17,785 nt of DNA. It comes from Ignavibacteria bacterium. GTDB taxonomy: Bacteria; Bacteroidota; Ignavibacteria; Ignavibacteriales; Melioribacteraceae. The stretch spans positions 1 to 17,785 of the forward strand of contig DAIEQT010000260.1 of NCBI GenBank assembly GCA_027347545.1, written 5' to 3'. The notes beneath the pieces are model-generated. The model was not told the DNA's origin and made no database searches. It saw only the letters and a program-made list of their open reading frames with translations. A program made the position numbers and the translations under genes. Below are positions 975-16,820 of this stretch, in pieces (the first letter of the stretch is position 1; every line of letters begins with the position of its first letter).

Positions 975-1051
975 GCTTTCAGCGGTCAGCTGTCGGCAAA
1001 CAATCCTTTCTTTGAACAGATTGTTAATATTGAATGCTGATAGCGGACAGC
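975..1051. repeat. Imperfect 16-bp direct repeat between alaS and the sigma gene
   Basis: Two 16-base copies, 975-990 (GCTTTCAGCGGTCAGC) and 1036-1051 (GCTGATAGCGGACAGC), match at 12 of 16 positions and lie 45 bases apart in the divergent intergenic region. They look like remnants of the short GCTGATAGC-type repeats scattered in some genomes. No function can be assigned. Confidence 0.35.
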
Positions 1052-1117
1052 AATATCAATTGCAAATTTAGCCTAGTTAACATACTTTTGATTAATAGTT
1101 ATTCTGGAAATTAAGAT

Positions 1118-1702
1118 TTGAATTCGAGCAAGTTTAGAGATTTAACCGATTTGGAATTAATGCAGGAGATTTCGCGGTTCGAATCGCGTGCCTTGGAAGA
1201 ATTGTACGATAGATATTCCCCGCTACTCTATACAATTATTAAGAAAATTTCTCCGAACCAGGCTGTAGCCGAGCAAATTCTAACCGAAGTTTTTGTAATC
1301 ATCTGGCGCAAAATTTCGAAATTCGATTTGAACAATGGAAATGTTTACACATGGCTAATAACACTAGCAAGAAACAAAGCTGTAGATAGCTTGCGACGCG
1401 AACGGGTTGCCGGACAAACGGTTCAATTGTACGATGATGAATATGAAGATTATTTTATTATTCCGATGTTTGAAAAGAATATGGATAGTTTGGATTTCAG
1501 AACTGCATTTGCGATAAAGCCAAAGATTGAAAAAGCGCTTGCCAAACTTACCGATACTCAAAAATATGTCTTGCATCTTGCTTACTACGAAGGATACACT
1601 GTTGATGAAATTTCCGACAAGCTGAATGTTCCTATTGAGACCGTCCGCTCCAAAGTGATGAATGCCTTGCATAGTTTACGTGATTTTCTGGTGAGGGAAT
1701 AA
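1118..1702 (+). CDS. ECF-type RNA polymerase sigma factor
   Basis: A sigma-70 family factor of the extracytoplasmic function class, 194 residues, the usual ECF length. Region 2 spans about 25-95, with an EVFVIIWRKISKF helix and the WLITLARNKAVDSLRR stretch typical of the -10-recognising and core-binding part. Region 4.2 spans about 138-191 and holds the -35-binding helix-turn-helix (YTVDEISDKLNVPIETVRSKV). Translation probably starts at TTG 1118: an in-frame stop lies just upstream at 1112-1114 and GGAAA sits at 1106-1110. The alternative ATG at 1160 would remove part of the first helix. The stop overlaps the start of the following anti-sigma gene by one base (TAATG), so the two are translationally coupled. 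ECF factors of this kind are usually held inactive by the neighbouring anti-sigma factor until an envelope signal arrives; the signal here is unknown. Confidence 0.93.
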   Translation: MNSSKFRDLTDLELMQEISRFESRALEELYDRYSPLLYTIIKKISPNQAVAEQILTEVFVIIWRKISKFDLNNGNVYTWLITLARNKAVDSLRRERVAGQTVQLYDDEYEDYFIIPMFEKNMDSLDFRTAFAIKPKIEKALAKLTDTQKYVLHLAYYEGYTVDEISDKLNVPIETVRSKVMNALHSLRDFLVRE

Positions 1703-2841
1703 TGGCTGATAAAGCGATTCACGAAATGGTTGCGGCTTATGCTGTAGGATGTATGGATAAGCAGAACTTCGTTCAGTTCAAAGATTATATACAAGAAGGG
1801 GGCGAGCTGCCCGATGGTGAGCTTGGCGAACTTCAAAATATAATTGCAATGATTCCCGTGATTTTAGATTTGGAAAAACCGCATCCGGCTATTAAGGATA
1901 TGGTTGCCAAAAAACTTATCGGTATAAAAGATGAAATTAAAGCGAAGATAATTAATGAGCGGAACACAATAGTTGGTATAAATCCGCGTCTTACTACTCA
2001 GCTCGGCAATGTAACAAAAGCTCCCGCACCACCAGCAGTTAAACCGCCGGCAAATACTCCAACCTTTCAAACAAAAGTAGTTGGCATAAAACCTAAAGTT
2101 GATTTTCCCGAAGAAGAACTTACAAGTACGTTTGCGGATGAAAGCATTGAGAAAAGAAAGACTGGAAAAGCAACACCACCCAAGCCGAGACCGACGGAAA
2201 TCAAGTCCGTTGAAATAGATGAACCGAAATTAAACACACAACACATAACACATGAAGTAGCGTCGGTTCCGGATGAGAAATTTTCTCCAAGTGTTCTGCC
2301 AATTATTGGTTTAATTATCTCTTTATTGCTAATCACTGTGTTGGGCTATTTTGTTTTCTCATCCTACCAGAAATTAAACAATCGGCTGGATGATTTGCAA
2401 AGTGAAATAAACACGATGCGCAGCCAGGTTGCAAGTGCAAATAGTTTTGTTGTTAACAGTGCTGCTTTGGTAGAGTTTTTTAACTACAAAGACATCAACG
2501 TTTTTAGTTTGACAAGTGCGGACCCAAATGTAAAAGCAACTGCAAAAGTTTTGCTTTCTTTTAGTGAAAAAGAAGGTTTAGTTCAGTTTAAAAATATGCT
2601 GCCGCTCCAGAACGGACAAGTATTTCAGTTGTGGATTGAAAACAAAGGTCAATCTTATTCCTTAGGCACATATCAGCCAGTTGGCGGCGAGTATTTAAGA
2701 TTAACCGCGTTCCCGTTTTTGCCTAAGGAACAGATTAGCGCATACAAGATTACGATTGAACAAGGGACTGGAGTTACAACTCCCTCGGCGGCGGTGTTGT
2801 CATCGAATGCAACAAGTGGATTTCCAAGGTTGAACCGTTAG
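1702..2841 (+). CDS. Membrane-anchored anti-sigma factor with RskA-like C-terminal domain
   Basis: Likely binds and inhibits the ECF sigma factor encoded immediately upstream. The 379-residue chain has a helical N-terminal cytoplasmic part (about 1-95), a proline-rich linker (about 106-170), one strongly hydrophobic membrane segment at about 197-220 (from VLPIIGLII), a short coiled-coil-like stretch (about 222-245) and an extracytoplasmic domain at about 255-365. The last has the RskA features FQLWIENKGQ, LGTYQPVGG and an ITIEQGTG-TTPS ending. Unlike zinc-binding anti-sigma domains, the N-terminus starts plausibly (EMVAAYAVGCMD) but lacks the His-x3-Cys-x2-Cys motif, so zinc binding is unlikely. 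The TAATG overlap with the sigma gene supports a sigma/anti-sigma pair. Its stop codon abuts the stop of the convergent gene with no spacer. Confidence 0.85.
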   Translation: MADKAIHEMVAAYAVGCMDKQNFVQFKDYIQEGGELPDGELGELQNIIAMIPVILDLEKPHPAIKDMVAKKLIGIKDEIKAKIINERNTIVGINPRLTTQLGNVTKAPAPPAVKPPANTPTFQTKVVGIKPKVDFPEEELTSTFADESIEKRKTGKATPPKPRPTEIKSVEIDEPKLNTQHITHEVASVPDEKFSPSVLPIIGLIISLLLITVLGYFVFSSYQKLNNRLDDLQSEINTMRSQVASANSFVVNSAALVEFFNYKDINVFSLTSADPNVKATAKVLLSFSEKEGLVQFKNMLPLQNGQVFQLWIENKGQSYSLGTYQPVGGEYLRLTAFPFLPKEQISAYKITIEQGTGVTTPSAAVLSSNATSGFPRLNR

Positions 2842-3339
2842 TTATTTCTTTCGATTGATAAAAATACTCATCCCGAAAAGGATGAGTATTACCGGTAAGA
2901 AAACTTCGAACATATCCCCAACATTTTTGAGCCATTCAAACAAGCCTATCTTTTTCAAAACAGTTAGAGAAAAATAGCTTAGTATGATTAGCGCAAAGCC
3001 GCTAAACAGAAAAGTTTTTTGCTTCACGTTTTCAATGAAAAGAATTAGAAAAGCCGCGCCGGAAATAAACAGTATTGAAACAAGAACCAATCCGCGCGTG
3101 TCTATTATTTCGTATGAGTTTTTTACAATTAGAACAATGCCGGTCAAAAATAGAATTGCCGAAAGAACAATTGTTCTGCGGCTGCCTACGCGGAATGAAT
3201 AGTTTGTGTTGCTAATGCCGAATGCGGCAAGTACAAGTCCAAGCAAAATTTCGGAATCGTAAATTAGTATGCCGCTCCAAATCAGCAGTAAGCCCGCGCC
3301 TAGAATAATTAACGATATAGCTACAAGGTTTTTATTCAT
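2842..3339 (-). CDS. Small polytopic membrane protein, hypothetical
   Basis: A 165-residue, very hydrophobic protein with about five or six membrane segments and almost no soluble part apart from short loops and a basic INRKK tail. I do not recognise a family beyond a general resemblance to the membrane proteins that accompany PspC genes. The start is set at ATG 3339 (MNKNLVAISLII): it overlaps the end of the upstream PspC gene by eight bases (ATGAATAA), which implies translational coupling. A longer start at 3387 would only add 16 polar residues that lie over the PspC coding sequence. A terminator hairpin lies inside the final codons. Probably acts with its operon partner at the inner membrane; function unknown. 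Confidence 0.7.
   Translation of the reverse strand: MNKNLVAISLIILGAGLLLIWSGILIYDSEILLGLVLAAFGISNTNYSFRVGSRRTIVLSAILFLTGIVLIVKNSYEIIDTRGLVLVSILFISGAAFLILFIENVKQKTFLFSGFALIILSYFSLTVLKKIGLFEWLKNVGDMFEVFLPVILILFGMSIFINRKK
2857..2890 (-). terminator. Intrinsic terminator inside the 3' end of a coding sequence
   Basis: A perfect 11-bp stem (2863-2873 with 2880-2890) encloses a six-base loop. Read on the minus strand it is followed directly by a T-run (ATTTTTATC). The hairpin encodes the last membrane-segment residues of the minus-strand gene ending at 2842. On the plus strand no T-run follows, so it should work mainly for the PspC operon, whose coding region ends 21 bases beyond the stem. The two convergent genes have no intergenic space, which explains why the terminator sits within the gene. 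Confidence 0.7.
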
Positions 3340-4030
3340 TTTGAAGAGGTGGCAATAGCGGTTCTTGTTGGGAAGTGAAAGCGACAACTACATAAACGGC
3401 GGCAAACATTCCTAAAGTTAAGCCGGTTAGCAAAAGAAAAATTATCCTGAGCGATGATGAATCTATACCAAGATATTTGGCAATTCCGCCGCAAACGCCA
3501 AGCAAAAACTTGTCGCTTCTCGATCTGAAAAATTCAGTTGTTTCTGCCGGGTCAACTTTTGCTTTTGAGATTTTATTTGTGAAGAGAAAAACTCCACCGG
3601 CAATGGCGAGCAGAGGAAACATAAAAGTGTTTGGCAAAATAAAAATGCTGGAAGAACCATGAAGCCCAAATTTTACAAGAGCGAAGTGCAGCCCAACTAT
3701 TATAAATAATCCGCTTACAACCGTTTTAAAATTCTCTTTGCCGGTTGCTTTAACTTCTTTCTCTGTTAACGTTTCATCTTGTTTGCCCATTGGAAGAAGA
3801 AAAGCGATAATTAAATAAGCGGCAACTATCCAGGCTCCAAGAAGAAGCAGAAGCATAGCAATCACGCGTATTGTAGCGGTATCCTTTCCGGCATATTCAG
3901 CTATTCCGGCGCAAACTCCGGCAATTACAACATTATCTCCGGAACGCTGTAATTTTTTAATCCGGTAAACCGGATCAGACTGCGGCGGCTCTCCGCCAAA
4001 TAATTCGTTATGTAAGTTTTGTTCATCCAT
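3332..4030 (-). CDS. Membrane protein with two PspC domains
   Basis: A 232-residue protein with a duplicated PspC (phage shock protein C) domain, at about 23-81 and 166-219. Each copy has the family signature: a basic start, then G-V-C-A/G-G-I-A-x-Y (IAGVCAGIAEYAG at 36-48; LGVCGGIAKYLG at 177-188), I-R-x-I or L-R-I-I, and a long hydrophobic helix. Two further membrane segments (about 102-120 and 134-151) separate the copies. PspC proteins are small inner-membrane partners in envelope-stress responses. No pspA-like gene is seen here, so a stress role is only suggested by family and by the sigma/anti-sigma pair across the convergent junction. First gene of a two-gene minus-strand operon; its stop overlaps the start of the next gene. 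No clear Shine-Dalgarno is seen. Confidence 0.85.
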   Translation of the reverse strand: MDEQNLHNELFGGEPPQSDPVYRIKKLQRSGDNVVIAGVCAGIAEYAGKDTATIRVIAMLLLLLGAWIVAAYLIIAFLLPMGKQDETLTEKEVKATGKENFKTVVSGLFIIVGLHFALVKFGLHGSSSIFILPNTFMFPLLAIAGGVFLFTNKISKAKVDPAETTEFFRSRSDKFLLGVCGGIAKYLGIDSSSLRIIFLLLTGLTLGMFAAVYVVVAFTSQQEPLLPPLQNE

Positions 4031-4204
4031 CTATAAGCTAACACCAAGTAAACATAGCAAGTTTATTTTCGTACAAAATAATTTAGCGGCTACTATTAAT
4101 GCAGAACCGGTTGCCAATTTAGGAAAATAGGATGTGAAGAGCGAAGAAAGCCTTAATATTTTGCTTGGGACTTATATTATTCCTTAAAAAATATTAAATT
4201 CATC

Positions 4205-4400
4205 TGCGATTTTTGATTGCGTTACATTTCTAATCAAAACTTACCCAGTTGCAATCAAGTTAACATAACTTCACTAAGATTCGCCACAAGCGGACGAGTG
4301 GAAACGGACAATTCAAGACAATTGAATTGTGTTAATAGATATCTGCCGTTTAGCATCGGTTGAAGCCATAAGCCTCTTTCAGTTTACAAAGAGGTTTTTC
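4205..4400 (+). ncRNA. Candidate structured leader or small RNA upstream of the SPFH gene
   Basis: This gene-free stretch (4031-4441) holds an unusual density of perfect complementarities. TTTTGATT at 4211-4218 can pair with AATCAAAA at 4232-4239, or alternatively TTGATTGC at 4213-4220 with GCAATCAA at 4251-4258; the two are mutually exclusive. CCAC/GTGG forms a small hairpin (4284-4301). AAACGG at 4302-4307 pairs with CCGTTT at 4346-4351 and encloses a 9-bp hairpin (4308-4316 with 4322-4330). A terminator follows at 4373-4399. This could be an attenuating leader or a free-standing small RNA. I do not recognise a known riboswitch class. The 5' end is a guess, and 4031-4204 shows nothing else I can name. 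Confidence 0.4.
4373..4399 (+). terminator. Rho-independent terminator upstream of the SPFH gene
   Basis: Perfect 7-bp stem CCTCTTT (4373-4379) / AAAGAGG (4388-4394), eight-base loop, then five Ts (4395-4399). Three weaker outer pairs (A-T, A-T and a G-T wobble) can extend the stem into the T-run. It ends 42 bases before the SPFH start codon, so it either ends a small RNA or regulates read-through into that gene. Confidence 0.6.
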
Positions 4401-4441
4401 GAAGAATAAAATTTGATGAAATAAATTAGTAGGAGATCACT

Positions 4442-5413
4442 ATGTGGTATGGCATAATAATAATTGTTGCGGTTACAATATTTATCTATGAGTACAGATT
4501 AAGAAAGCCGGATCAGCTTGTTTTAACAGAGGCAAACGGGAAAATAATTTTGCGCTCTTCCCGCGTTTATCCAAAAGATTTTAGCCTGGTGCTTCCCAAG
4601 ACAACGCAGTCAATGCAGCTAACTGTTGAATCAAGCGCGAAAGGAAATCTGGATATTAAAGTGAAGCTTTCCGTTGCGGTTTCTTTGGCTGCGGGAAACA
4701 TTACTCAGCTTATAAAGGTTGGCGGATGGAACTCCGGTGCGGTTGCTAAAGCCGCTAAAGAGTTCGAAACCGTTCTTCAAAGTTTGATTAAGGAATTCAC
4801 CGAGAAATATGAAATTGAAGAATTGTCCTCGGAGAAAATTTACAACCACTTAATTGATAAAGTAGGAATAAGCAAAGAACAATTTGGGCTTGATACGGTT
4901 TCGGTTTCCGTTCAATCGTTTGAAGTTGTTGATCAGAAAATCGCCGAAGCGATTCGCCAGCAAGAATCTGCTAGAATTTTAGAGCAGACTGAATTACTCA
5001 ACCAGAAAGCGAGAATCACTGCCGCAAAAGCTAAACTGAAAGCTGATGAAGAGATCGCTTTCTTGGAAAACGAACTCGAACTCAAAAAGTTTGATTTGAA
5101 ACGCACCGAGTTAGATAAAGAATCCGAGCTTGCCGATAAACGCATGAAAGAAGAATTGAATAGAAAGAAACTAAACCTTGAGTTTGAAAAAGAGGAATTA
5201 GAATTGCTGAAGAACAATCCGGAGTTGTTAATCCTTTCTCCGCAAGCAGCAAGATTAGCTGAAGCAAGCCAGACTTTGAAGAACGCACGCACAGTGGTTA
5301 ATCTTTCTCCAAGCGAAATTGCGCAAGGCTCAGATTTATTAAATGTCTTTCAAAACTTTCTTCAGAAGTCGGTTGGTTCATCATCTAAGAAAAAAGATGA
5401 CGAGAAAAAATAG
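4442..5413 (+). CDS. SPFH/band 7 domain membrane protein (flotillin/stomatin-like)
   Basis: A 323-residue protein with an N-terminal membrane anchor (residues 3-16, IIIIVAVTIFIYEY region), an SPFH/prohibitin-type domain (about 25-165, containing LVLTEANGKIILRSS, a TVESSAKGNLDIKVKL strand pair and VSVQSFEVVDQKIAEAI) and a long charged coiled coil rich in Lys and Glu (about 165-258). It ends in a region with repeated LSPQAARLAE/LSPSEIAQG segments and a Lys/Asp tail. Proteins of this type oligomerise at the inner membrane and organise membrane microdomains or regulate membrane proteases. No NfeD-like partner is adjacent. The start is supported by AGGAG at 4431-4435, one of the better ribosome sites in the window. 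A terminator lies between the upstream structured region and this gene, so expression may be controlled by read-through. Confidence 0.85.
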   Translation: MWYGIIIIVAVTIFIYEYRLRKPDQLVLTEANGKIILRSSRVYPKDFSLVLPKTTQSMQLTVESSAKGNLDIKVKLSVAVSLAAGNITQLIKVGGWNSGAVAKAAKEFETVLQSLIKEFTEKYEIEELSSEKIYNHLIDKVGISKEQFGLDTVSVSVQSFEVVDQKIAEAIRQQESARILEQTELLNQKARITAAKAKLKADEEIAFLENELELKKFDLKRTELDKESELADKRMKEELNRKKLNLEFEKEELELLKNNPELLILSPQAARLAEASQTLKNARTVVNLSPSEIAQGSDLLNVFQNFLQKSVGSSSKKKDDEKK

Positions 5414-5426
5414 AACATTAAAACTT

Positions 5427-5534
5427 GAGGTTGTCTCAAAAGTAATGTTTTATGATATAATAGCCCGCGGATGACACAGATTAAACTGATTTTCGCAGAT
5501 TTATTATTTGAAGAATTACTTTTTAGACAACCTC
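5427..5534. mobile_element. Short terminal-inverted-repeat element (MITE-like, 108 bp)
   Basis: A 20-bp terminal inverted repeat, left 5427-5446 (GAGGTTGTCTCAAAAGTAAT) and right 5515-5534, with one mismatch, encloses 68 bp that cannot encode a transposase. GAGGTTGTCT ends resemble the ends of some insertion sequences, so this is probably a non-autonomous miniature element. The interior (5466-5503) carries CGCGGATGACACAGATTAAA, a phrase that I recall from dispersed repeats in several genomes. No clear target-site duplication was found. When transcribed, the ends would form a long hairpin just after the SPFH stop codon and could help end that transcript. Confidence 0.6.
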
Positions 5535-5549
5535 CTACAAAAATCTGTA

Positions 5550-5601
5550 GGGATTTGATTTAAGCCTCGGCGAGACGCGAGGCTCGACGGGTATCAAACC
5601 C
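5550..5601. repeat. Imperfect palindrome / strong hairpin before the giant gene
   Basis: Nested inverted repeats: GGG-a-TTTGAT (5550-5559) pairs with ATCAAACCC (5593-5601) with one bulged A, and inside it GCCTCG (5564-5569) pairs with CGAGGC (5578-5583). No T-run follows on the plus strand. It may be a dispersed repetitive extragenic palindrome or a structured 5' leader of the 5654 gene; the sequence does not decide between them. The rest of 5414-5653 shows nothing else that I can name. Confidence 0.5.
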
Positions 5602-5653
5602 AAAATTTTACTGAAGATATTTCTAAACAATCATAAGATAAATTCTATCATTA

Positions 5654-8600
5654 ATGATTAGCGAAAAAGATCCATTAGAATACTTTGCGATAAAACCGGT
5701 TAAAGCGGCTACAGTTTCTGAGATAAGCGAAGCAACTGCTTCATCTCCGGTGCCGCCGGAAGAGCGCGTAAATTTTCACATCGGCAACCCGGTGCAAGAT
5801 GTGCAGCTATCCTCTGCATATTTACGCATGGTGCTTGGTGTTGATATCACACGCGAGGAATTAACCGACGCCGATCTTGATGCTATCATTAATGAATTAG
5901 GTTTAGATGAAGATGCAAAAGTTGAGCTAGAATTTTTCCGCGATCTAATTAAGAAAAGTGCGCCCTACACTCCGCGCGGCGGATTTAATAAGAACGCGCC
6001 AAACTTTTTAATAAAACATTTTAATGAATGGCTTACAAAGAATCAGCAAGAGCCGCTTGCTTACGATCTTGGCGAGAAATCCGGAAGACGTGAAGTAATA
6101 ATCGCAACCGGCGGAATCAATGAAACGTTAAGACTTCTTTTTCACGCGCTCTCAAATTTTCTTGTTACTAAGCCTGCAAAAGTTTTTCTATACGGAATTT
6201 CACTCCCGGCACACTTAACAATTTTTAAGTCGCTGGGTTTTCATTATTTGCCGGAAGTTGAAGAAAAGCTAGTCAAATCACTAAAGGAAGAATTAGTTTC
6301 TTCGCCGAAGACTCCGGCATTTCTTGTTCTTGGCAAAAACACAAAAGAAGAAGTACGCAGAAAGCTTAGACAGCTAAGCATGGAGCGTCCTTTATTTTTT
6401 GTTGAAGCGAACGATGCGCCAAATCATCTTTCGCTTGCTCGCGAAGCTAAAATGATGAACCGCGTTCTCCGCATTTTAACTCCGGGAATATTTTCTCCGG
6501 CGCTTAAAGATCTTTCAACTTTGTTCTTTGCCGGCAATCCGGATTTTATAGAAATCATAGAAACAATTCACTTCCAGCTAAAAGGAACTCCGTCGGCTTC
6601 CGAAATTGAATTGCTTTCGTTCATTCTTAAAAATGATTTAACAAAAAAGTTTGAAATTTCCGGCAAGCCAAATGTGGTTGTTGAAACCGAATACGACGGC
6701 TACGTTACAAGAGGAATTAACGAAGCTGCTTACGGCACGCATGCCAAAGTTTATGAAGAGAAAATCGGCGTTTTGATTAACGACAAAAGTCAAAGGTTTG
6801 GCGAGATTGCGGAATCGTTACAAGAGAAAGCTAATTCGCTTATTTCAAAATCCGGCAAGCAAACAAATGTTTATAAAAGTGATTTGTTTGGCGGATTAAC
6901 TGCAAGCGAAGTGCTTGATAAACTCACTTCAAATATTTTTTCGAGAGACTTTCATCAAGAGCTGGTTGATAGTTTTCTCTATTCGTTTTTACATCATCAC
7001 CCGGAATACCGAAGCAGAAACTGTTACGTAATAAGCGGTTCATCACGTACAGGCTTGGGTTTGCTCGGGTTTCATTGCGGAATTACAGAAGTAATTTTTC
7101 CGGATTTAAGCTGGACCTACGAACACTGCTTTCCAAAAGTTACAGTAGTTCCTCTAGCAGACAATTTTGAGTTAGATATAGATGGAATTATCGCCGCCGT
7201 GAAGAAAAAATTATCCGATGATCCTCATTGGAGAAATTACGGAGCTGTTGCTCTTAACAATCCTCACAACGCAACCGGACAAGAATTTGATAAATCAGAA
7301 TTAAAAAGATTGCTCAAATGGCTTTTGGGCAACAAAATTTTTGTTCTCGATGATCTTTCATACCAGAACGTTGCACCAAAAGATTCGCTTGATGTAATAA
7401 AGACAATCCGCCAGTTAACGGACGAGCTTGTTGAAGAAGGCTATCTGATTGAAGAAGAAGCAAACTACGCAATCACAGTTCATTCTGTTTCTAAAACAGA
7501 TTCACTTGCCGGAGCGCGCCTTTCGGTAATCGAAATCCGTCACCCGGAAATTGCTGAAAAGTATAAAGCCGTTCTCTCAACAATAAAATTAAATCTCGGC
7601 GCAATCTTTCTCACATATTTGTTTTACAGAAACAAAGTTGAAACAGTGAACGCTTATTGGCGTTTACGGAATAAAATTTTCAAAGAAAGAAATGCCGCTT
7701 TAGCAGAAGCGGTAGAGATACTCCCCGATATTCGAAACCGGTTTGATATTTTCATCAAGCCGCCAAAAGGAAGTATGTATCCGCAAATGATTATCAACAG
7801 GCTTCCAGCCGGGCTTTCTTTAGACTGGCTCGCATCGGGACTCGCGCGGCAAGGAATTGGTCTTGTACCGCTTTCAACTTTTGCCAGAACAGAAAAAGGT
7901 TTTGAAACGGGAAGAAAAACTTTCCGCTTAACTCTTGGCGGAACAGACAACGCAGAAATTCTCCGCAGCAAAACCAGAAGAGTTTTAATTGATCTGAACA
8001 GAATGATTGCCGAAGAAGCCGCCCATTACAACAGAAAGAAGTTTCGCGTTCAGCCGCTAACTGTTAAAAAAACTCAAAGTAAGATTGATTATGCTTTAAG
8101 CTGGGAAAGGATTGAAACGAATGTTAAAGCAAATTTTGGAATTGTTGTAAGCCGCTACGCTATTCAGTTCAACGGCGAAGTTTCAAATACGAACAGAATT
8201 GAAAAAGACTATCTGGCTGAGCGGCTTGAATTATTTAAGCAGCGCTTCTTTGAGCGGACAAAAATTATATCCGATTTGACAGACGTAATCAGCGCCGACA
8301 AAGGAAAACATCTCGCTCAAGTTCTTGACCGTGAATTTTACCGTGATGATTTAGTTAGAAGAGAAGCTTCATTCAAAAATAGATTGTACGATAGAACTGT
8401 CCATCCAACTCAAATGTACTCCCTCAAAGCTGAGTGGGCGTTTGAAAAAGTGATCGAAGCATTAATCCGCGGAAAAGAGATTCAGCAAAGCCATTTTGAT
8501 TTGCTTCGCGAGGAATTGGTTAAAGAATATCTCGGATTAAACGTTGCGATTGTTTCCAATGAAGAATCCGAAGAACTGATTTTAGATTTGAATTCAATCA

Positions 8601-11260
8601 TCACTGCCGAAAATTATTCAGCGCTTTACTCAGATCGTCCGTTTGAAACATTCTTATCATTCTGGGGCGATTGGGATGGAAGCAACAGACCAAGCGGACA
8701 AGGGCACCGCTTGGTATCAGCTGTTCTAATTGAAAACGTTGTCCGCCAAGCAAGAATTATTCAGTTGCTGCACAGGCATGATAAATCTCTAAAGATTGAT
8801 CCGGCGATTATCAGTGAAATTGAAAAACTTCCGAAGAACAACAACCGCTTCACGGAATTGTTCAACGAGATTAATTCGCTCACGCATCAGCTTGAAAAAC
8901 GTTACCGTGGAATTCTTCCGGTGAATATTAAAGCGGGAAGAGTCCGCCAGTTTGGAATGAAGCTTCACATCGCGCAAGATCCGCTAACCCGCTTGTGGCA
9001 TCATAACGATAGGCTCGAGCGCAAAATGCTTGATCTGAGAAAGCAGCGCCGCGATACGCTTGAATATTATTTTTCGTTGAACAAACAAATCAGAAAAACT
9101 TTACACGGGTTAATTCCGGCAATACAAAAAAATATTTCCAATTATGAGTTAATGATTGAAGCCGGAACTTACCGCGATTTGTTGAAGCGGTTTATAATTA
9201 CTCCGCGCATTCATCAAAAGTTAATTACAACGCAAGACCCGTTTGCGATTGATACTACAGTTTATAACATCAACGAGATAAATGAAATTTCCGGCAAGTA
9301 TGGAAATCCCGGAATGGTGATGGCATTGCAAGTAAGTATGTCCACCAAACCGGATGCGCTTATTTCGCTTGATAGAAAACTACGCGCAAGCCGCGAACAA
9401 ATTTTACGAGAGAAATCGGATGCAAATATTCCAAACGTTTGGAGCGTTCCTCTCTTTGAAGATTTGGATTCAGTGAAAAAGATTGGCGGCTTCCTGAATA
9501 AAATTTGGGAATACTCTCTGCAAAGCAGAAGATTAAATCAAGAAACGAGTGAGCGCTTTACAGAAATTATTACAGAAGTTTTTGTCGCGGGATCAGATTT
9601 AAGTCAGCAAATTGGGCAGGCTGCCGGAATGAGTTTTTACAAAGAAGCCAAGCATGAAGTTACAACATGGCTTGCCGAGCGTGGTTTGATTGGAAAAATT
9701 AGAATGAAAATGGGAAGCGGCGAACCGATGCAGCGGCAAGGCGGTTATTACACAACCGTTGCCGGTACACGTGCGTTTATTCAGTCAAACGATTCTGCTA
9801 AAAGATTTTCAGAGTATCTGCAAGAATCAACAAAGAAAAGTACAGAGTACGCAACAACTCCCCTTATTGGTGTTTTTGCCGGCGGCGATTTAAGAACTTT
9901 CCAGAGCAGCATTTCCGAAAAACTCCGCTACTTGCCGGTTCAAGATTATGCGCAGTTGTTGTATCATGTTAAAGAATCTCAAAAGTTTTATGAAACGGAA
10001 ATACACCGCGCCGGTGAACCGATTGTTGAAACTCGTCTTCAGTTTAGAAACCGTGGATTGAAAGAACTTGAGCGGTTAACAATTGGCAAGAAGGATAAAG
10101 TTTTTGATGAGTTCCTTCCAATTCTAACCGAAAACTTCAGACAGATTCTTTACGGAAGAGAAGAAGATGTAGTTGGCATTCATATAATTTCTTATTTCAT
10201 TGGAAGAACAACTCCGCCGCTCAGAGACCGTCCTACTGTTCGTCCGGGACAAGGAGTTGGTGAAAGTGCGGGACAAAAAATTCTTGAAAAGATTGCCGGA
10301 ACAATTCCGTTTTCTAAGTATGGAAGTTTGCTGCGGGCAATTTCACACAATCAATCACAAACAGTTGTGTTGGGAATAAACCAGCTAACAACCGGCTTAT
10401 TCCGCGCACTAGATTCGTTTTCGCAAAAACAATTTACCGGAGGCGTTTCATCTTCATTAATTACGGATAGAATTTTGCCGAACCTACCGGTTTATGAAAT
10501 TCTTCATACGCTTCGTATTTATCACGATGTTGATTTGGTTTATCTAAACAAACTTGAAAAAGCGTTCCCGGCTGGAAATTCTGCGTTGTTAGCATTAAGG
10601 GAAGACATTGACGCGATTGCAAAATACTTGCCGCTGTTTCAGCGCGAACTTTTACGCCGTCATGGAATTGATGTAAATGATTTCTTTGAGAAGGATAAAT
10701 TTATTGCCGATCTACTTCCTACGCTTCGTCCGGATGTTTCGGTTCTGCTTCAGCCGGATTTGTTCAATACAAGTTTGGATAATTTGCTTTCCCAAATCAA
10801 CGGAAGTGTTGATAAATCCTGGCGCGAAGAAATGCTAAAACTTCTTGCTATGCCGGTAAAGATTAAAAAATGGCGTGCGGGGATTTGGAATTTACTTGAG
10901 CAGCCGGTATTTCAGCGTGTTGCAAGTTTTGTAGAACTCGCGATTGCGCTCCATTCTCTTTCGGTTAATAGTTCTTCTAAGGAAAACATCTTCTCATCAA
11001 AGAAAGCTAAAGCGCCGCAGATGCCGAATCTTTCTCAAACATCTGTTGATGAGAATATGCATCAGTTTTTAGCTGCTGCAATGGAATATCTGTCTGTGGT
11101 TTCTCAAGAAATGGTTGAAGTGCCGATTAATATTATCCGTGCGTTAAAAGAAGCTGAGCGCATAATTAAAATTGAAGTGCAAGCACTCACTTCCAAACAA
11201 CAAGACATGCTAAGATTTTATTTGCTGCAAATCGCCCGATTAACCGGAGAGAACGGGTAG
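5654..11260 (+). CDS. Giant fusion: degenerate aminotransferase, PLP aminotransferase and PEP carboxylase-like domains
   Basis: One 1868-residue chain. Residues ~36-360 resemble an aminotransferase fold (GRREVIIATGG, VEANDAPNHLS) but lack the PLP lysine. Residues ~370-790 are a full class I/II aminotransferase: NNPHNATG (535-542), D567-x2-Y570, Schiff-base K614 in HSVSK followed by R622, and carboxylate-binding-type R758 in FRLTLGG. Residues ~790-1868 carry PEP carboxylase landmarks in order: VHPTQ (His917), FWGDWDG (1003-1009), FGMKLHIAQ (1100-1108), SMSTKPDAL (1228-1236), PLFED (1266-1270), GSD (1313-1315), GSGEPMQRQGG (1354-1364), LRAIS (R1561). PEPC makes oxaloacetate; an aminotransferase could convert it to aspartate, so channelling is plausible but inferred. 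Counterparts of several PEPC substrate residues look changed. No signal peptide is visible, so probably cytosolic. No Shine-Dalgarno is visible at ATG 5654. Alternative: a PEPC-fold protein with a different activity. Confidence 0.8.
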   Translation: MISEKDPLEYFAIKPVKAATVSEISEATASSPVPPEERVNFHIGNPVQDVQLSSAYLRMVLGVDITREELTDADLDAIINELGLDEDAKVELEFFRDLIKKSAPYTPRGGFNKNAPNFLIKHFNEWLTKNQQEPLAYDLGEKSGRREVIIATGGINETLRLLFHALSNFLVTKPAKVFLYGISLPAHLTIFKSLGFHYLPEVEEKLVKSLKEELVSSPKTPAFLVLGKNTKEEVRRKLRQLSMERPLFFVEANDAPNHLSLAREAKMMNRVLRILTPGIFSPALKDLSTLFFAGNPDFIEIIETIHFQLKGTPSASEIELLSFILKNDLTKKFEISGKPNVVVETEYDGYVTRGINEAAYGTHAKVYEEKIGVLINDKSQRFGEIAESLQEKANSLISKSGKQTNVYKSDLFGGLTASEVLDKLTSNIFSRDFHQELVDSFLYSFLHHHPEYRSRNCYVISGSSRTGLGLLGFHCGITEVIFPDLSWTYEHCFPKVTVVPLADNFELDIDGIIAAVKKKLSDDPHWRNYGAVALNNPHNATGQEFDKSELKRLLKWLLGNKIFVLDDLSYQNVAPKDSLDVIKTIRQLTDELVEEGYLIEEEANYAITVHSVSKTDSLAGARLSVIEIRHPEIAEKYKAVLSTIKLNLGAIFLTYLFYRNKVETVNAYWRLRNKIFKERNAALAEAVEILPDIRNRFDIFIKPPKGSMYPQMIINRLPAGLSLDWLASGLARQGIGLVPLSTFARTEKGFETGRKTFRLTLGGTDNAEILRSKTRRVLIDLNRMIAEEAAHYNRKKFRVQPLTVKKTQSKIDYALSWERIETNVKANFGIVVSRYAIQFNGEVSNTNRIEKDYLAERLELFKQRFFERTKIISDLTDVISADKGKHLAQVLDREFYRDDLVRREASFKNRLYDRTVHPTQMYSLKAEWAFEKVIEALIRGKEIQQSHFDLLREELVKEYLGLNVAIVSNEESEELILDLNSIITAENYSALYSDRPFETFLSFWGDWDGSNRPSGQGHRLVSAVLIENVVRQARIIQLLHRHDKSLKIDPAIISEIEKLPKNNNRFTELFNEINSLTHQLEKRYRGILPVNIKAGRVRQFGMKLHIAQDPLTRLWHHNDRLERKMLDLRKQRRDTLEYYFSLNKQIRKTLHGLIPAIQKNISNYELMIEAGTYRDLLKRFIITPRIHQKLITTQDPFAIDTTVYNINEINEISGKYGNPGMVMALQVSMSTKPDALISLDRKLRASREQILREKSDANIPNVWSVPLFEDLDSVKKIGGFLNKIWEYSLQSRRLNQETSERFTEIITEVFVAGSDLSQQIGQAAGMSFYKEAKHEVTTWLAERGLIGKIRMKMGSGEPMQRQGGYYTTVAGTRAFIQSNDSAKRFSEYLQESTKKSTEYATTPLIGVFAGGDLRTFQSSISEKLRYLPVQDYAQLLYHVKESQKFYETEIHRAGEPIVETRLQFRNRGLKELERLTIGKKDKVFDEFLPILTENFRQILYGREEDVVGIHIISYFIGRTTPPLRDRPTVRPGQGVGESAGQKILEKIAGTIPFSKYGSLLRAISHNQSQTVVLGINQLTTGLFRALDSFSQKQFTGGVSSSLITDRILPNLPVYEILHTLRIYHDVDLVYLNKLEKAFPAGNSALLALREDIDAIAKYLPLFQRELLRRHGIDVNDFFEKDKFIADLLPTLRPDVSVLLQPDLFNTSLDNLLSQINGSVDKSWREEMLKLLAMPVKIKKWRAGIWNLLEQPVFQRVASFVELAIALHSLSVNSSSKENIFSSKKAKAPQMPNLSQTSVDENMHQFLAAAMEYLSVVSQEMVEVPINIIRALKEAERIIKIEVQALTSKQQDMLRFYLLQIARLTGENG

Positions 11261-11409
11261 TTGAAACTTCTTCGCTAAAACCACTCAATTCTCTTATGCC
11301 TTGTTTTAGAGTAAATGAAAATTTAAGTTGTGATTGAAAGTAGCCCTTCTTAATTGGGGTTTTATAACTTTAGCTGAATTCTTCCTAACATTGTTAAACA
11401 GAGTAATTG

Positions 11410-13164
11410 ATGAGCTGGATAATCGGCGCCGTAGGGCGTTGTTCTGTCGAATTACAAAAGAAAATAGAATCCTTTACTAAGAGTAAATTAGTTGAATACC
11501 GGGAGGATAATTTTGTTGTTTTTGCCGGTGGAAATGATAAAACATGTTTGTTTGAAGTAAATGAATTATCAACCGAGAGATTTATAACTGTAGGCATTGG
11601 GATTAAGAATGACGAGAATAAAACACGGTTCATGCAGGCTTGTGATTGGGAAAATGTTTCAAGCAGTTCCAGTGCTCAAAAACTCGACGGTCATTTTGTA
11701 AATGTTAGATGGAATGATAATGAAGTTAAAATATTTACCGATGTTTTAGGATTACGGGATATTTACTTTACCCGAATGAGCAAAGAAGTATTTGTTTTTT
11801 CAACAAGGGGAGATTGGCTTTCGAAAATCTGCGACTCGGAAATAAATCTTAAAGAGTTTGGAAGCCGCTGGCTATTGTTCAATCAAATTTCTGATAGAAG
11901 TATATTTACCAACGTTGAAAGAGTTAGCGGCGGTACAAGTGTAATAGTAAGCAGACCAAATACTAGTTTTACGGTTAATAAATTTACTTGGTTACCAAAA
12001 TTCGAGAGCGAACATGTACCAATAGAAGAACACTCTCGGCAACTTAACAGACTTATTCACTTCCCGTTTTCTAGTTCGCATCAAATAACATTAAGCCTTT
12101 CCGGCGGTATGGATTCGAGGCTTATTTTATCAAGCTTACTCAATGGCAAAAATAGAAATTGGTATGCGCATACTTTTGGAAATAATAATCACCCTGATTC
12201 CGTGGTAGCGCAAAAGATATCCGGCGATCTGGGAATTAAACACGAGCAAATAAATCTGGATTTACCAACAATCGATACGTTTTTATCAGAAGCTGCAGAG
12301 TATGTTTCCCTCACCAATGTAAATAATGCAGTTACCGGATATCTGCAGTTAAGAAATTACAAAAGTCTAATTGGTAGAAACGAAGTAGTTGTTGACGGCG
12401 GATTTGGTGAGATATGGAGACGTGAGTTTTTTAATCGTCTTTTGATCAAAGGCAGAAGAGAGTTGATTAACAGAAATATTGATGGGATGATACCTTATTT
12501 ACAGGTCCATCATGCAAATATCTTTACTGAAGAAATTCAGAAAAGTTTACTTGCCGGATGTAAAGAGCAATTGGAAGATATTATAGAGATTTTGCCCAAA
12601 GCCGAGTTGACAGGGGTTGAAAATTGGATAGATTTATTTGCTATCAAAACCAGATTATCAAACTATTATTCTTCGGCTCAAATCCATTTAGATGGCTGGG
12701 TATTTAGCTACATGCCATTTATTCAACCAAATATTCTAAGTAACCTTTTTAATGTAACCCTAACGGAACGGAAAAACGGTAAAATGTTCCGCGAGGTAAT
12801 TAAGCAAAACAATAAGTCTCTCGTTAAATATCCTTTAGCTAAAGGGCAATATTCTCACCCATTTTTCTTGAATACAATTCAGTCGCGTGTTTGGAATGCC
12901 GCTTATAAGAAACTAAGATTCAAAATGTATGATGATCGCAGTCAGGAAAAGCTAATCTATTTACTTTCTCCATTTATACAAGATACAATTGCTTCTTCGG
13001 GTGTTAAAAATTGCGGGTATTATGATTATCCCAAACTTCTGCATCTTTCCAACACTATTTCGAAAAGAAGCGCAACCGCTTCTGATCTGCACGAATTGGA
13101 TTGGTGGCTATCGTTCGAATTGTTTAGGCAGGGACTTAATAATCCGTTCGTTAAAAATAATTAG
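11410..13164 (+). CDS. Asparagine synthetase-like protein with inactivated glutaminase domain
   Basis: 584 residues in the AsnB family. The N-terminal part (about 1-190) keeps the class II amidotransferase fold outline (LDGHFVNVRWNDNEVKIF, DVLGLRDIYF, FVFSTRGDWL), but the nucleophilic Cys that should follow Met1 is Ser2 (MSWIIGAVGR), so glutamine hydrolysis is not expected. The synthetase part has the ATP-pyrophosphatase loop SGGMDSR (231-237) and a later DGGFGEIW segment matching the family's second conserved loop. It could be ammonia-dependent, or form amides or ring bonds on another substrate, as beta-lactam synthetase and lasso cyclases do with related folds. ATG at 11410 is preferred; a TTG directly before it (11407) would put an extra Met in front. 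It follows the aminotransferase-PEPC gene on the same strand after 149 bases, where only a weak hairpin plus T-run (about 11341-11362) is seen. Confidence 0.8.
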   Translation: MSWIIGAVGRCSVELQKKIESFTKSKLVEYREDNFVVFAGGNDKTCLFEVNELSTERFITVGIGIKNDENKTRFMQACDWENVSSSSSAQKLDGHFVNVRWNDNEVKIFTDVLGLRDIYFTRMSKEVFVFSTRGDWLSKICDSEINLKEFGSRWLLFNQISDRSIFTNVERVSGGTSVIVSRPNTSFTVNKFTWLPKFESEHVPIEEHSRQLNRLIHFPFSSSHQITLSLSGGMDSRLILSSLLNGKNRNWYAHTFGNNNHPDSVVAQKISGDLGIKHEQINLDLPTIDTFLSEAAEYVSLTNVNNAVTGYLQLRNYKSLIGRNEVVVDGGFGEIWRREFFNRLLIKGRRELINRNIDGMIPYLQVHHANIFTEEIQKSLLAGCKEQLEDIIEILPKAELTGVENWIDLFAIKTRLSNYYSSAQIHLDGWVFSYMPFIQPNILSNLFNVTLTERKNGKMFREVIKQNNKSLVKYPLAKGQYSHPFFLNTIQSRVWNAAYKKLRFKMYDDRSQEKLIYLLSPFIQDTIASSGVKNCGYYDYPKLLHLSNTISKRSATASDLHELDWWLSFELFRQGLNNPFVKNN

Positions 13165-13172
13165 TGAAGAAT

Positions 13173-13200
13173 CGAACTGATTTACACTGATTGAATTAGT
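13173..13200. repeat. Short dispersed-repeat remnant between convergent genes
   Basis: The 45-base gap between the AsnB-like and arginase stops contains GAACTGATTTACACTGATTG, with an internal TGATT-N5-TGATT repeat. It resembles the interior of the 5427-5534 element (ATTAAACTGATTTTCGCAGATT) and may belong to the same repeat family. No terminator hairpin is visible here. Confidence 0.3.
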
Positions 13201-13209
13201 CATTCACAG

Positions 13210-14136
13210 TTACATAATTCTTAAACCCAAACTTGAAGCAATCAACTCGGCAGTAATTTCTGCGCTTCTGTTTCTTGAATCAAGAATTGGATTGACTTCC
13301 GCTACTTCCAGCGATGACATGCATCCGCATTCTGCAATAGTTTCCATCAGCAAGTGAGCTTCGCGGTAATTCAATCCTCCGCTAACTGGTGTTCCAACTC
13401 CCGGCGCTATGGATGGATCAATACTGTCAGCATCAAAACTAACGTGTATATGCTGCACACGCGGTTTCAAATCTTTTAACACTTTGTTGATGATAAAATT
13501 AATTCCCTTCCGGTCAATTTCTGTCATTGTGTAAACTTTCATTCCCAGTTTTTTAATAGTTTCTCTTTCTTCAGCATCTAAACTTCTTATTCCAATGAAG
13601 GCAACATTTTGTGGTTTTATTTTAGGCGAAAATCCATGAATCGTAGAAAGTGATTCACTGCCAAGTCCAAGTGAAACGGCAACACTCATTCCGTGAATAT
13701 TGCCGGATGGAGTTGTTGCGTCCGTATTCATGTCGGCGTGAGCATCAATCCAAATTAAGCCAAGTTCTTGCTTCTGTCTTTTGCAATGAGAAGCAACTCC
13801 GGCAAGAGTTCCAATTGCCATTGAATGATCTCCGCCGATGCAAAGAGGAAAATTTCCATACTCGAGTGATTTCTCAACCTTCTTAGCAAGCAGTTCTGTG
13901 GTGCGGATAATTTCGTCAAGATATTTCAGCTTAGGATTTTTAACTAATTGGTGCTCTTGGTTTTTGATGAACACATCGCCATGATCTGTAACCTCATAAC
14001 CTAGCCGCTCGAGCTGCTGTTCAATTCCGGCAATACGCAAAGCCGATGGACCCATATCAACGCCGCGTCTTCCGGCGCCAAGATCCATTGGGAATCCGAA
14101 AATATCTATGTGCTTACTTATCGTCGCTTGTTTCAT
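13210..14136 (-). CDS. rocF: Arginase (ureohydrolase family)
   Basis: Hydrolyses arginine to ornithine and urea with a binuclear manganese centre in the cytoplasm. The 308-residue length is typical. All metal-site motifs are present: GGDHS with His104, DAHAD with Asp131, His133 and Asp135, and SFDADSIDP with Asp235 and Asp237. Arginase-type features include GVDMGPSALR (25-34), SGNIHGM (144-150) and E280 in the EVAEVNP stretch. The SGNIHG loop favours arginase over agmatinase, though substrate cannot be proven from sequence. The ATG at 14136 is preceded by GGGA on the minus strand, a weak ribosome site. Divergent from the OsmC-family gene across 130 bases that contain a 21-bp palindrome; convergent with the AsnB-like gene. 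Confidence 0.9.
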   Translation of the reverse strand: MKQATISKHIDIFGFPMDLGAGRRGVDMGPSALRIAGIEQQLERLGYEVTDHGDVFIKNQEHQLVKNPKLKYLDEIIRTTELLAKKVEKSLEYGNFPLCIGGDHSMAIGTLAGVASHCKRQKQELGLIWIDAHADMNTDATTPSGNIHGMSVAVSLGLGSESLSTIHGFSPKIKPQNVAFIGIRSLDAEERETIKKLGMKVYTMTEIDRKGINFIINKVLKDLKPRVQHIHVSFDADSIDPSIAPGVGTPVSGGLNYREAHLLMETIAECGCMSSLEVAEVNPILDSRNRSAEITAELIASSLGLRIM

Positions 14137-14201
14137 TTTTTTCCCAAACTTTATGAATAAATTTACAACCGTAGTTTTTAGAAAAAAACACTAAAGTCTG
14201 T

Positions 14202-14222
14202 GAAAGATTTGAAGAATCTTTC
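14202..14222. promoter_or_regulatory. 21-bp perfect palindrome in the arginase/OsmC divergent promoter region
   Basis: GAAAGATT (14202-14209), a five-base centre, then AATCTTTC (14215-14222): perfect 8-bp arms. It lies 44 bases before the OsmC-family start and 66 bases before the arginase start. A dimeric regulator could control both genes from here; a transcript hairpin is the alternative. Confidence 0.4.
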
Positions 14223-14266
14223 CAGCAAGCTACACATCTAACAAAATAAAAATTAAAGGATAAATC

Positions 14267-14698
14267 ATGGCTGAGAAAAAAGCTGTAGTTAAACACATTA
14301 AAGGTGTAACATTCCTGGGCAAAGCCGATTCAAACCACTGGATTTCCATGGATGGACCGGAAGAGTTTGGCGGAAGTAACGCTGGAACGAGACCGAAAGA
14401 GCTTTTGCTTTTGGCGCTTGGCGGATGTACTGGAAGTGATGTAGCAGTAATCTTAAAGAAGAAAAAAATCAATGTGGATGGTTTTGAAATTAATTTAACA
14501 GGGGACATGCAAGAAACACATCCTCAAGTTTATACTAAGATAAATGTGGAATATGTTTTTTACGGAAATAATATTCCTAAGGAAGCTGTTGAGAGAGCAA
14601 TCGAGCTTTCGCAGAAGAATTATTGTAGTGTTACCGCAATGCTGCAAAAAGCAGTTGAGATAACACACACGTTCAGAATTGAAGAAGCAAAATTATAA
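14267..14698 (+). CDS. OsmC family protein (peroxiredoxin-like)
   Basis: 143 residues, the usual OsmC/Ohr size. Members reduce organic hydroperoxides with two reactive cysteines. Both are present: Cys54 in LALGGCTGSDV on the central helix, and Cys120 in QKNYCSVTAML. The Glu of KELLLLAL (Glu45) and the Arg/Pro before it (TRPKE) match the family's helix start. The closest overall look is to the general OsmC-like (YhfA-type) branch rather than to Ohr, so peroxidase activity is family inference. A good ribosome site, AAAGGA (14255-14260), precedes the ATG by six bases. The last six bases (TTATAA) overlap the convergent DUF2203 gene and supply the stop codons of both. Confidence 0.9.
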   Translation: MAEKKAVVKHIKGVTFLGKADSNHWISMDGPEEFGGSNAGTRPKELLLLALGGCTGSDVAVILKKKKINVDGFEINLTGDMQETHPQVYTKINVEYVFYGNNIPKEAVERAIELSQKNYCSVTAMLQKAVEITHTFRIEEAKL

Positions 14699-15073
14699 AT
14701 ACTCTTGCGGTATGGGTTTTCTTCCGGGAAACCCATCTAACAAACCGTGGTAGTAACGAATATCTTCCTCGTCACTTTTCCAGCAAAGCAAAACTTCGTT
14801 ACCATTTATTATAGCCGGAAAATCAACTAAGCCGATTTCAAAATTCCAATCTTTATATGAGCAGCCAATTTCTTCAAGCTCACGCATAAAATGATGTATT
14901 TGAGCCGAGAGAGTTTTTACTTCTTCGTTTTCCTCAAAATCTCCGCCGATAGATTCCGCGATAACTTTTATTTTGTTGGCGTTACCGAGAATATCACGGA
15001 CAATTTGCTTAACTAGCGGCAAAGTTCTCTGCGCTTCACGCGGCGTAAAATATCTCACATCAATTTGCGGCAT
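14693..15073 (-). CDS. DUF2203 family protein
   Basis: A 126-residue protein of uncharacterised family DUF2203. It shows the family's opening (YFTPREAQRTLPLVKQIV), a helical middle (about 30-75), and the conserved C-terminal run with IGLVDFPA, NGNEVLLCWK, a YYHGLLDGF turn and FPGRKPIP. Biochemical function is unknown. The start is set at ATG 15073 because AAAGGA lies six bases upstream on the minus strand; a longer start at 15133 would add 20 residues overlapping the promoter region of the divergent MarR gene. Converges on the OsmC-family gene with a six-base overlap. Confidence 0.82.
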   Translation of the reverse strand: MPQIDVRYFTPREAQRTLPLVKQIVRDILGNANKIKVIAESIGGDFEENEEVKTLSAQIHHFMRELEEIGCSYKDWNFEIGLVDFPAIINGNEVLLCWKSDEEDIRYYHGLLDGFPGRKPIPQEYL

Positions 15074-15118
15074 TTGTAATCCTTTCGCTTGGAACAAATT
15101 TAGCTTTATTCGTACAAC

Positions 15119-15147
15119 TTGACAAACCGTCAACTAATATATATTTT
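15119..15147 (+). promoter_or_regulatory. Likely marR promoter with embedded palindromic operator
   Basis: TTGACA at 15119-15124 is followed after 17 bases by TATTTT at 15142-15147, a plausible sigma-70 pair. The -35 box is inside a palindrome TTGAC-N5-GTCAA (15119-15133), the size and shape of a MarR-family operator. The site lies between the divergent DUF2203 and MarR genes, so the regulator could repress itself and possibly DUF2203. Binding is inferred from position and symmetry only. Confidence 0.45.
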
Positions 15148-15178
15148 GATGTCGTAATAATCTAATTAGTGATAAATT

Positions 15179-15634
15179 ATGAAAACAACCAAAAAATATG
15201 GTAAGAAAGCCGATTTAGCATTATCAACTTGGGTAAAGCTGGCGCGGGCTTATACTTCATTCAACAAAAAATCCACAGAAAGCATAAGGGAATTCGGCTT
15301 AACTCAGCCGCAGTTTGCAGTAGTAGAAGTTCTCGGGCATTTGGGTCCCTTAAAAGTAGGCGAAATTTGCGATAAGATGTTAGCCAGCGGCGGGAATATG
15401 ACTTTGGTTTTAGATAATGTTGAAAAGCTTGGCTTTGTAGAACGAACGCACAGCAAAGAAGATAGGCGCGCAATTCTTGTTCAGCTTACGGCAAAAGGGA
15501 AGCAGCTTTTTGATGAAGTTTTTGTTGGGCACGCAGAACAGATTACAAAATTTATGTCTGTTCTTTCTGCCGATGAACAAAAAACCCTTGGCGATCTATT
15601 AAAGAAGCTGGGTATAGGTGTTGGTAAACTTTAA
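15179..15634 (+). CDS. MarR family transcriptional regulator
   Basis: 151 residues, a typical MarR winged-helix DNA-binding dimer. Seen: an N-terminal dimerisation helix (about 10-40), the core FGLTQPQFAVVEVLGHLGPL start (39-58), recognition region around KMLASGGNMTLVLDNVEKLG (66-85), and the wing with the family hallmark SKEDRRAI (92-99), followed by LTAKGKQLFDE. Ligand unknown. The start codon is the only good one; no clear Shine-Dalgarno precedes it. A palindrome overlaps its likely promoter, suggesting autoregulation. The restriction-modification genes begin 47 bases downstream on the same strand; there is no sign that MarR controls them, and no terminator is visible between them. Confidence 0.92.
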   Translation: MKTTKKYGKKADLALSTWVKLARAYTSFNKKSTESIREFGLTQPQFAVVEVLGHLGPLKVGEICDKMLASGGNMTLVLDNVEKLGFVERTHSKEDRRAILVQLTAKGKQLFDEVFVGHAEQITKFMSVLSADEQKTLGDLLKKLGIGVGKL

Positions 15635-15681
15635 ATATATTGCCAAGTGACTATTCGAAACATCTTTATAAGAGGAGAAAT

Positions 15682-16820
15682 ATGGCGTACGAATCTGTAG
15701 ATAACTACAAAAAGCTTTAGTTGATAATGTTTTTCATTATGCTAAAGATTCGAAAAAGGCTGCCGGACGAGCTCTTGGGACAATTGTTGAAATAATAACC
15801 TACTATCTTTTGAAAACGTGGGGTATGAACAACCAAATCTCTATCGAAAGAGGCTTAGAGGAATACGGAAATCCCGACATTACCCACAACGTAGAATTTT
15901 CGCTGCATCCTATTATCCATAGCGTGGTTTTAACGATTGACAAAAACAATGAATCAATAACAGCCAACAAAATTTTAAAAGCACTTCAAGAACAAAAATC
16001 TAATCTAAAAGAATTTGAGCCGAAGCCAAATCAGCTTATTAGCAAAGGTGTTCTTCGTAATGCATGTACAATAGCTGTATCAGAGAAGTCCTTTTTACTT
16101 TGTAGTGTTAAAGCCGATATGGGCAATAAATATGAACTGTATATTTATGAACAAAGCAAAAAGCCCTATTCGGTTTTCGAATGTAAACGAGTTGGAGTAG
16201 AAGAGGGGATGTCTAAAGGACCACAAACAATAGAAAAAGCTAAACAAGGAGCTTATGTTGCGCGTACTGCCTCCTCGCTTCAGAAAATTAGAAATGAGTC
16301 CGGTGAGATGTATGGAATAATTTATAAAAGTAACAGTGCCTATATTGTTAAACCATTCACCTCTTTACTTGATGAAGTAATATACTCTAAAGATAAAGAA
16401 TTGCTAAGGCGCTTCATACTGACTGTTGGTGTGGTGAGTAATCATGGCAATTGGTTTACATCCAATAATCAGAATAAAGAATTAAAAGTTCTCGCACAAT
16501 CTTATGATTGGTTACTTTTCCTTACAGATAAAGGTCTTTCGGAATTTATTGAGAAATTGCTTTTCAAACCCAGACGAGAGTTTAAACCGATTAGAGACGC
16601 GTTTATTTCGAGCTACACGGCAGCGAAAAAGAAAAATCAATTCACCAAAGTTCAGATGAATGTTGAAGCCGATAGAGTTCTACTAGAATATTTTCGTAAA
16701 AACTTAAAAGCTATTGAGAAGTGGTTTAATATTATTTCACCCCAAAAGAAAAATTTATCTAACTTAAGACAAGAGTTAAAAGAACTAAAAGATAAAGACT
16801 GGAATGAGATTCTAAAATGA
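15682..16820 (+). pseudogene. Frameshifted type II restriction endonuclease (candidate)
   Basis: From ATG 15682, with a strong AGGAG at 15673-15677, only 12 codons read before TAG at 15718. Shifting by one base in the A-run at 15709-15713 joins this start to an open frame running to 16820, restoring a 379-residue protein (MAYESVDNY, then ALVDNVFHYAKD). The frame itself offers only a TTG at 15810 as a later start, losing about 43 residues. The call as a nuclease rests on a PD-(D/E)xK-like site (restored D146 in KADMG, then E167-C-K169 in SVFECKRVG) and on its four-base ATGA overlap with a DNA adenine methyltransferase gene. I do not recognise its specificity. The shift may be real inactivation, a homopolymer sequencing error or, less likely, programmed slippage at C-AAA-AAG. 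Confidence 0.6.

Follow-up and report, generated by a model that had tools for sequence, protein, structure and literature searches.

What does a polypeptide do that begins as an aminotransferase and seems to end as a phosphoenolpyruvate carboxylase (PEPC)? The question is raised by an open reading frame (ORF) of 1868 residues in contig DAIEQT010000260.1 of an Ignavibacteria bacterium (assembly GCA_027347545.1), of which positions 1 to 17,785, the whole stretch of DNA analysed, are called the window here. The initial annotation described this frame as a fusion of the two enzymes in one chain. The single chain is real. It is matched by 735 database proteins at E <= 0.001, is encoded at 60 loci of public genomes, and occupies a single open frame in 21 of 24 carrier relatives, being broken or at contig ends in the remaining three (G050, G051 and G077). 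Among the 120 matches listed, length ranges from 1835 to 1892 aa and identity from 54 to 96%, and the database records, where named, are called aminotransferase or hypothetical protein. Two features had been missed: an inserted, probably degenerate aminotransferase-like domain, and a linked gene, immediately upstream and in the same orientation, that encodes an SPFH/Band-7 protein.

This partner gene is the strongest new clue to function. It is present in all 24 fusion genomes and in none of 73 relatives lacking the fusion. Clustering of neighbouring ORFs of at least 100 aa, for loci that have 600 or more upstream bases, places it at 45 of 53 loci, window included; a profile search recovered it at six of the eight misses (one partial), and addition of L039, which was outside the first count and lacks the gene, makes the total 51 of 54. 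Beyond it, no gene turns up beside the fusion at more than five of the 61 clustered loci. The clue points to the pair as the functional unit. Both halves of the fusion and the SPFH gene evolve together, with distance correlations of 0.90-0.95 across the 37 sequences with both genes. The family assignment of the partner comes from profiles of its relatives: PF01145 (Band_7) is matched by 15 of 20 aligned sequences, best 6.7e-10, and the window member itself gives no Band_7 match and no PDB sequence match. PADLOC returned no match for either protein, and a role as a defence system was rejected.

The aminotransferase half is readily recognized. The window fusion matches PF00155 at E 2.9e-14 (53.5 bits, cut-off 19.7), and the motif residues listed in the initial annotation (N539, D567, Y570, K614, R622 and R758) are as described and invariant in all 43 aligned relatives, which reach down to 41% identity. 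These 43 sequences comprise the window and 42 loci. Partial loci and L021 (used in the tree only) are excluded, as are duplicates (L061, L063 and L066-L069, also left out of the tree); L062, L064, L065 and L070 were not taken in by the plus-strand extraction. By profile, by its pyridoxal phosphate lysine (K614, which we take to be the Schiff-base lysine) and by the partner residues, the sequence of the N-terminal half reads as a class I/II aminotransferase. Its closer relationships are less distinct. The best NCBIfam model is the general aminotransferase PRK07568, at 30.4 bits against a cut-off of 389, and all 25 models listed score far below their own cut-offs. An invariant motif, DxxWTYEHCFP, is specific to the aminotransferase of this family. 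Residues ~141-410 are probably a second aminotransferase large domain, degenerate and lacking the lysine. Their order of strands and helices parallels that of the active large domain, and the hhalign alignment is collinear but weak (P 0.12 and 0.46, not significant).

The case for the PEPC-like half is made by its fold. The model predicted for residues 791-1868 has the PEPC alpha/beta barrel with helical additions, and all 50 Foldseek rows listed are PEPCs. In order along the chain, eight model strands of at least three residues bear or come before HPT, GDWDG, ITPRIHQ, SMS, PLFED, GSD, KMGSGEP and LRTFQ. Thus the domain, as modelled, belongs to the PEPC superfamily. Fold and sequence part company here: residues 790-1868 of the window fusion match no PEPC in Pfam, NCBIfam or PDB. 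PF00311 is matched weakly by four of the 43 relatives (best 7e-4), and two fusions in the relatives' genomes reach 7e-5 and 5e-4, still under the cut-off; PF14010 is matched by five of 43 (best 0.0012). The window member matches neither family. Under the annotation's own two tests, this sequence result technically counts against its reading, and the barrel of the predicted structure counts for it; the joining of aminotransferase and PEPC-like enzyme in one chain is supported. The domain seems to represent a third and very divergent type, short of the gathering score of canonical PEPC (PF00311) and unlike archaeal-type PEPC (PF14010) in its weak profile matches and its length of ~1079 aa. A passage of PMC8100219 puts archaeal-type PEPC at ~55-60 kDa. 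As a source of archaeal-type sequences for a profile, PF14010 matches in 47 of 198 genomes of the phylum were rejected, since their 839-996 aa frames look like cross-matches of canonical-length PEPC.

In the predicted active site, counterparts of five E. coli Ppc residues (H917, E1269, D1315, R1361 and R1561) are invariant in all 43 relatives. In Ppc we take His138 to be catalytic, Glu506 and Asp543 to be metal ligands, and Arg587 and Arg713 to be the bicarbonate/PEP arginines, PEP being phosphoenolpyruvate. The annotation gave the right letters for these residues at those numbers, and its spacing of 352/46/46/200 in the fusion is correct. Its landmarks HPT, GDWDG, SM, PLFE, GSD, GxGEPMQRxGG and LRAI are also present. 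The exception is FG-x8-Q, which lacks conservation (F in three of 43); the counterpart of Arg396 is instead probably R1185 on the third barrel strand of the model. Chance matching of landmarks was rejected on the fold and on controls, though sequence searches alone showed no PEPC.

Table 1. Features of the fusion gene and its partner (window positions; residues numbered in the fusion)
Feature	Positions	Strand	Basis or remarks
Aminotransferase / PEPC-like fusion	5654-11260	+	ATG start, 1868 aa ORF
N-terminal segment of aminotransferase fold, residues ~1-140	5654-6073	+	NFHIGNP (G44), PYxPRGG loop (Y105, R108); boundary inferred
Inserted domain, residues ~141-410	6074-6883	+	Probably degenerate Lys-less aminotransferase large domain, low-confidence linker, long helix
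Active aminotransferase large and small domains, residues ~411-790	6884-8023	+	PF00155 match 450-765, fold match
K614, presumed Schiff-base lysine	7493-7495	+	Invariant 43/43; role by family knowledge
PEPC-fold domain, residues 791-1868	8024-11257	+	Predicted structure, Foldseek
H917 (HPT), counterpart of E. coli Ppc His138	8402-8404	+	Invariant 43/43, hhalign register
R1185 (ITPRIHQ), third barrel strand, likely counterpart of Arg396	9206-9208	+	Strand order only; invariant
E1269 (PLFE), counterpart of Glu506	9458-9460	+	Profile alignment; invariant 43/43
D1315 (GSD), counterpart of Asp543	9596-9598	+	Profile alignment; invariant 43/43
R1361 (GEPMQRQGG), counterpart of Arg587	9734-9736	+	Profile alignment; invariant 43/43
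R1561 (LRAI), counterpart of Arg713	10334-10336	+	Motif by eye; invariant 43/43
SPFH/Band-7 protein, 323 aa	4442-5413	+	Hydrophobic N-terminal stretch (by eye a presumed membrane anchor), followed by a Band-7-like domain and a charged helical tail

Because PEPC yields oxaloacetate and an aminotransferase can turn oxaloacetate into aspartate, a route from PEP to aspartate is the simplest of the readings in which both sites have a role; the genomes do not force it, and our confidence in it stops a little short of even. We infer that oxaloacetate is the most likely product of the PEPC-like domain, formed by carboxylation of PEP with HCO3-. The fused aminotransferase, with one working active site and a degenerate partner-like domain in a single chain, would then convert this product to aspartate by transamination, glutamate being the donor. 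Oxaloacetate, an unstable intermediate, would be handed over inside one chain, and the SPFH partner would keep the bifunctional enzyme at the membrane. Such a membrane-held module of two genes, scaffold protein first and enzyme second, is proposed with the same tentativeness. The almost constant presence of a membrane-scaffold gene beside the fusion suggests a self-contained pathway, associated with the membrane, that builds an amino acid from PEP and bicarbonate. A bolder version appears rather doubtful, namely a membrane-microdomain metabolon in which a third PEPC class, always fused to a single-chain pseudo-dimeric aminotransferase and held by a dedicated SPFH scaffold, makes aspartate directly from PEP, bicarbonate and an amino donor, as a two-gene unit inherited across several bacterial phyla.

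Several observations weigh against the PEP-to-aspartate route. Foldseek TM-scores to bacterial and plant PEPCs are low (0.29-0.39 of the query), and a C-terminal profile of the 43 sequences finds no PEPC in PDB by sequence. Profile comparison with PEPC gives a weak P of 0.0025, which becomes 0.043 with fewer sequences and 0.81 in global mode, and two unrelated Pfam families match more relatives (nine and eight of 43) than the two PEPC families do. The PEP site is altered, because the column of Arg581 holds S/A/C/N (37/3/2/1 of 43) and that of Lys546 holds Gln, so that neither canonical residue is kept. At three loci, all from Bryobacteraceae (L023, L039 and L053), the available sequence contains the fusion but shows no SPFH partner. 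An ATP-dependent PEP carboxykinase (PEPCK-ATP) occurs in 19 of the 24 fusion genomes, and 12 other places in the window's genome exceed the PF00155 cut-off; a general supply of aspartate would thus not need the fusion. Nor is the inverse association with canonical PEPC significant (3/24 with the fusion vs 22/73 without, P = 0.11), and replacement of canonical PEPC by the fusion was set aside as a trend only. In these incomplete bins PYC_OADA was found in none of the 24 and PEPCK-GTP in three. Four of the 24 lack all four enzymes, compared with two of the 73 without the fusion (P = 0.03, uncorrected for kinship or several tests). The window's genome gives no PF00311 match; a 589-aa frame in genome G071 that matches PF00311 weakly looks, by eye, like a protein of binding-protein type and was discarded.

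The altered PEP loop would suit activity on other substrates, a reading that we regard as a serious minority possibility. Here the PEPC-like domain would carboxylate or lyse another enolpyruvate-type compound, and the aminotransferase would use that product or supply its keto acid, yielding a specialised metabolite or a membrane modification at an SPFH microdomain. The family-specific aminotransferase motif, the patchy occurrence of the fusion as an accessory gene, in 56 of the class's 391 genomes, and the usual presence of other PEP/oxaloacetate enzymes are consistent with it. The retention of counterparts of His138, Glu506, Asp543, Arg587 and Arg713 speaks against it, as does the lack of any neighbour beyond the SPFH gene at more than five of the 61 clustered loci.

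A sensing or scaffolding role for one of the domains is improbable. The PEPC-like domain, for instance, would bind PEP or dicarboxylates and, without any carboxylation, control either the aminotransferase or SPFH assembly. Its great divergence, the altered Arg581 and Lys546 columns and the tight link to a scaffold-type protein would fit, as would the confidence (predicted local distance difference test, pLDDT) below 50 of two modelled loops, GEPMQRQGG and the one that precedes LRAI; however, invariance of the catalytic and metal-ligand counterparts down to 41% identity is unusual for a dead enzyme. An assembly or gene-calling artefact, or chance landmarks, is a negligible prospect: the window is one contig of a fragmented 2.7-Mb bin (75% complete, 530 contigs) and the C-terminal part lacks a Pfam match, but hundreds of proteins and many genomes, including that of the named strain Stygiobacter electus 09-Me, carry the same fusion, and the predicted model has the PEPC fold.

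The fusion is found in a little-studied group of bacteria, and its spread is uneven. The 24 carriers are among 97 relatives' genomes; a 25th match, G083, was dropped (E 8.1e-4, 20% identity, aminotransferase stretch only). In a 44-row tree, built by a quick method and showing long branches, the row closest to the window is L001, a Stygiobacter metagenome-assembled genome (Melioribacteraceae, Ignavibacteriota; 96% identity). Nine Acidobacteriota form one clade nested among Ignavibacteriota/Bacteroidota rows, and three Calditrichota rows stand apart. This nesting, together with the patchy presence, suggests a history of gain and loss, possibly with transfer into Acidobacteriota. Judging by record names, the family also occurs in bins labelled Anaerolineales, Marinimicrobia and Limnocylindrales, in which foreign contigs are possible. 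Mobility on plasmids or phages was rejected, as the plasmid and phage collections hold no match; two pattern matches in viral contigs were not confirmed.

Shorter proteins matching the fusion number 175. Among the 120 listed (identity 41-98%), there is no clean case of a stand-alone PEPC-like part. For 31 proteins, selected largely for the length of their contigs, most starts are scattered and five fall near the domain junction. These five (P0161, P0171, P0183, P0189 and P0191) lack the aminotransferase half and may be natural splits or frameshifts; four lie on contigs of at least 89 kb. At L045 (7752-13280), a single in-frame stop a little ahead of the R758 position splits the fusion into two same-frame ORFs. 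In genome G474 a frame of 1112 aa covers the C-terminal part in full and equals in length the frame behind that stop.

Elsewhere in the window, an element of ~108 nt at 5427-5534, between the SPFH gene and the fusion, resembles a miniature inverted-repeat transposable element, with 20-nt terminal inverted repeats that are 95% complementary. With a 120-base query, 31 stretches of the window's genome match; this number includes the element itself, and in a few cases two stretches are pieces of one copy. The downstream gene at 11407-13164 carries an LSGGMDSR motif and matches asparagine synthase (PF00733) below threshold, at 0.0026; it is not a recurrent neighbour across the clustered loci. The region 15810-17443 holds a 336-aa ORF with weak similarity to type I specificity subunits, followed by an orphan Dam-type methyltransferase.

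If the PEP-to-aspartate route is correct, an enzyme family of the PEP-pyruvate-oxaloacetate junction would gain a third sequence class, one that goes unrecognised here by the profiles of Pfam and NCBIfam. The fusion would join carbon fixation to amination in nature and offer a model for oxaloacetate channelling and synthetic C4-type pathways. To our knowledge, the clients of SPFH scaffolds are mostly unknown, and such a scaffold would gain one specific, testable client enzyme.

Among the papers listed by literature searches, mostly outside subscription journals, on PEPC-aminotransferase fusions, on SPFH pairings with an aminotransferase or PEPC, and on PEPC in Melioribacter, none describes this protein. 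In the main text of a survey of prokaryotic SPFH proteins, 'aminotransferase' and 'carboxylase' each have 0 occurrences (PMC2636767). The PEPC-like domain shares 17% identity with archaeal-type PEPC (PDB 3odm), from which it differs in being about twice as long (1079 vs 527 residues), in its fusion to an aminotransferase and in the lack of a Pfam match in the window member. It shares 13% identity with the bacterial/plant type (E. coli Ppc, PDB 1jqn), and is set apart by its score under the Pfam cut-off, the replaced Arg581 and Lys546 counterparts and the same fusion. Compared with class I/II aminotransferases such as LysN (2egy), aspartate aminotransferases and ACC synthase, the N-terminal half has an inserted domain of ~270 residues and its own motif. 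The partner, by the Band_7 matches of its family, resembles SPFH/Band-7 proteins of the stomatin and flotillin type. A passage of PMC13086221 notes that SPFH genes often share operons with NfeD genes; unlike these, the SPFH gene described here is paired with a metabolic enzyme.
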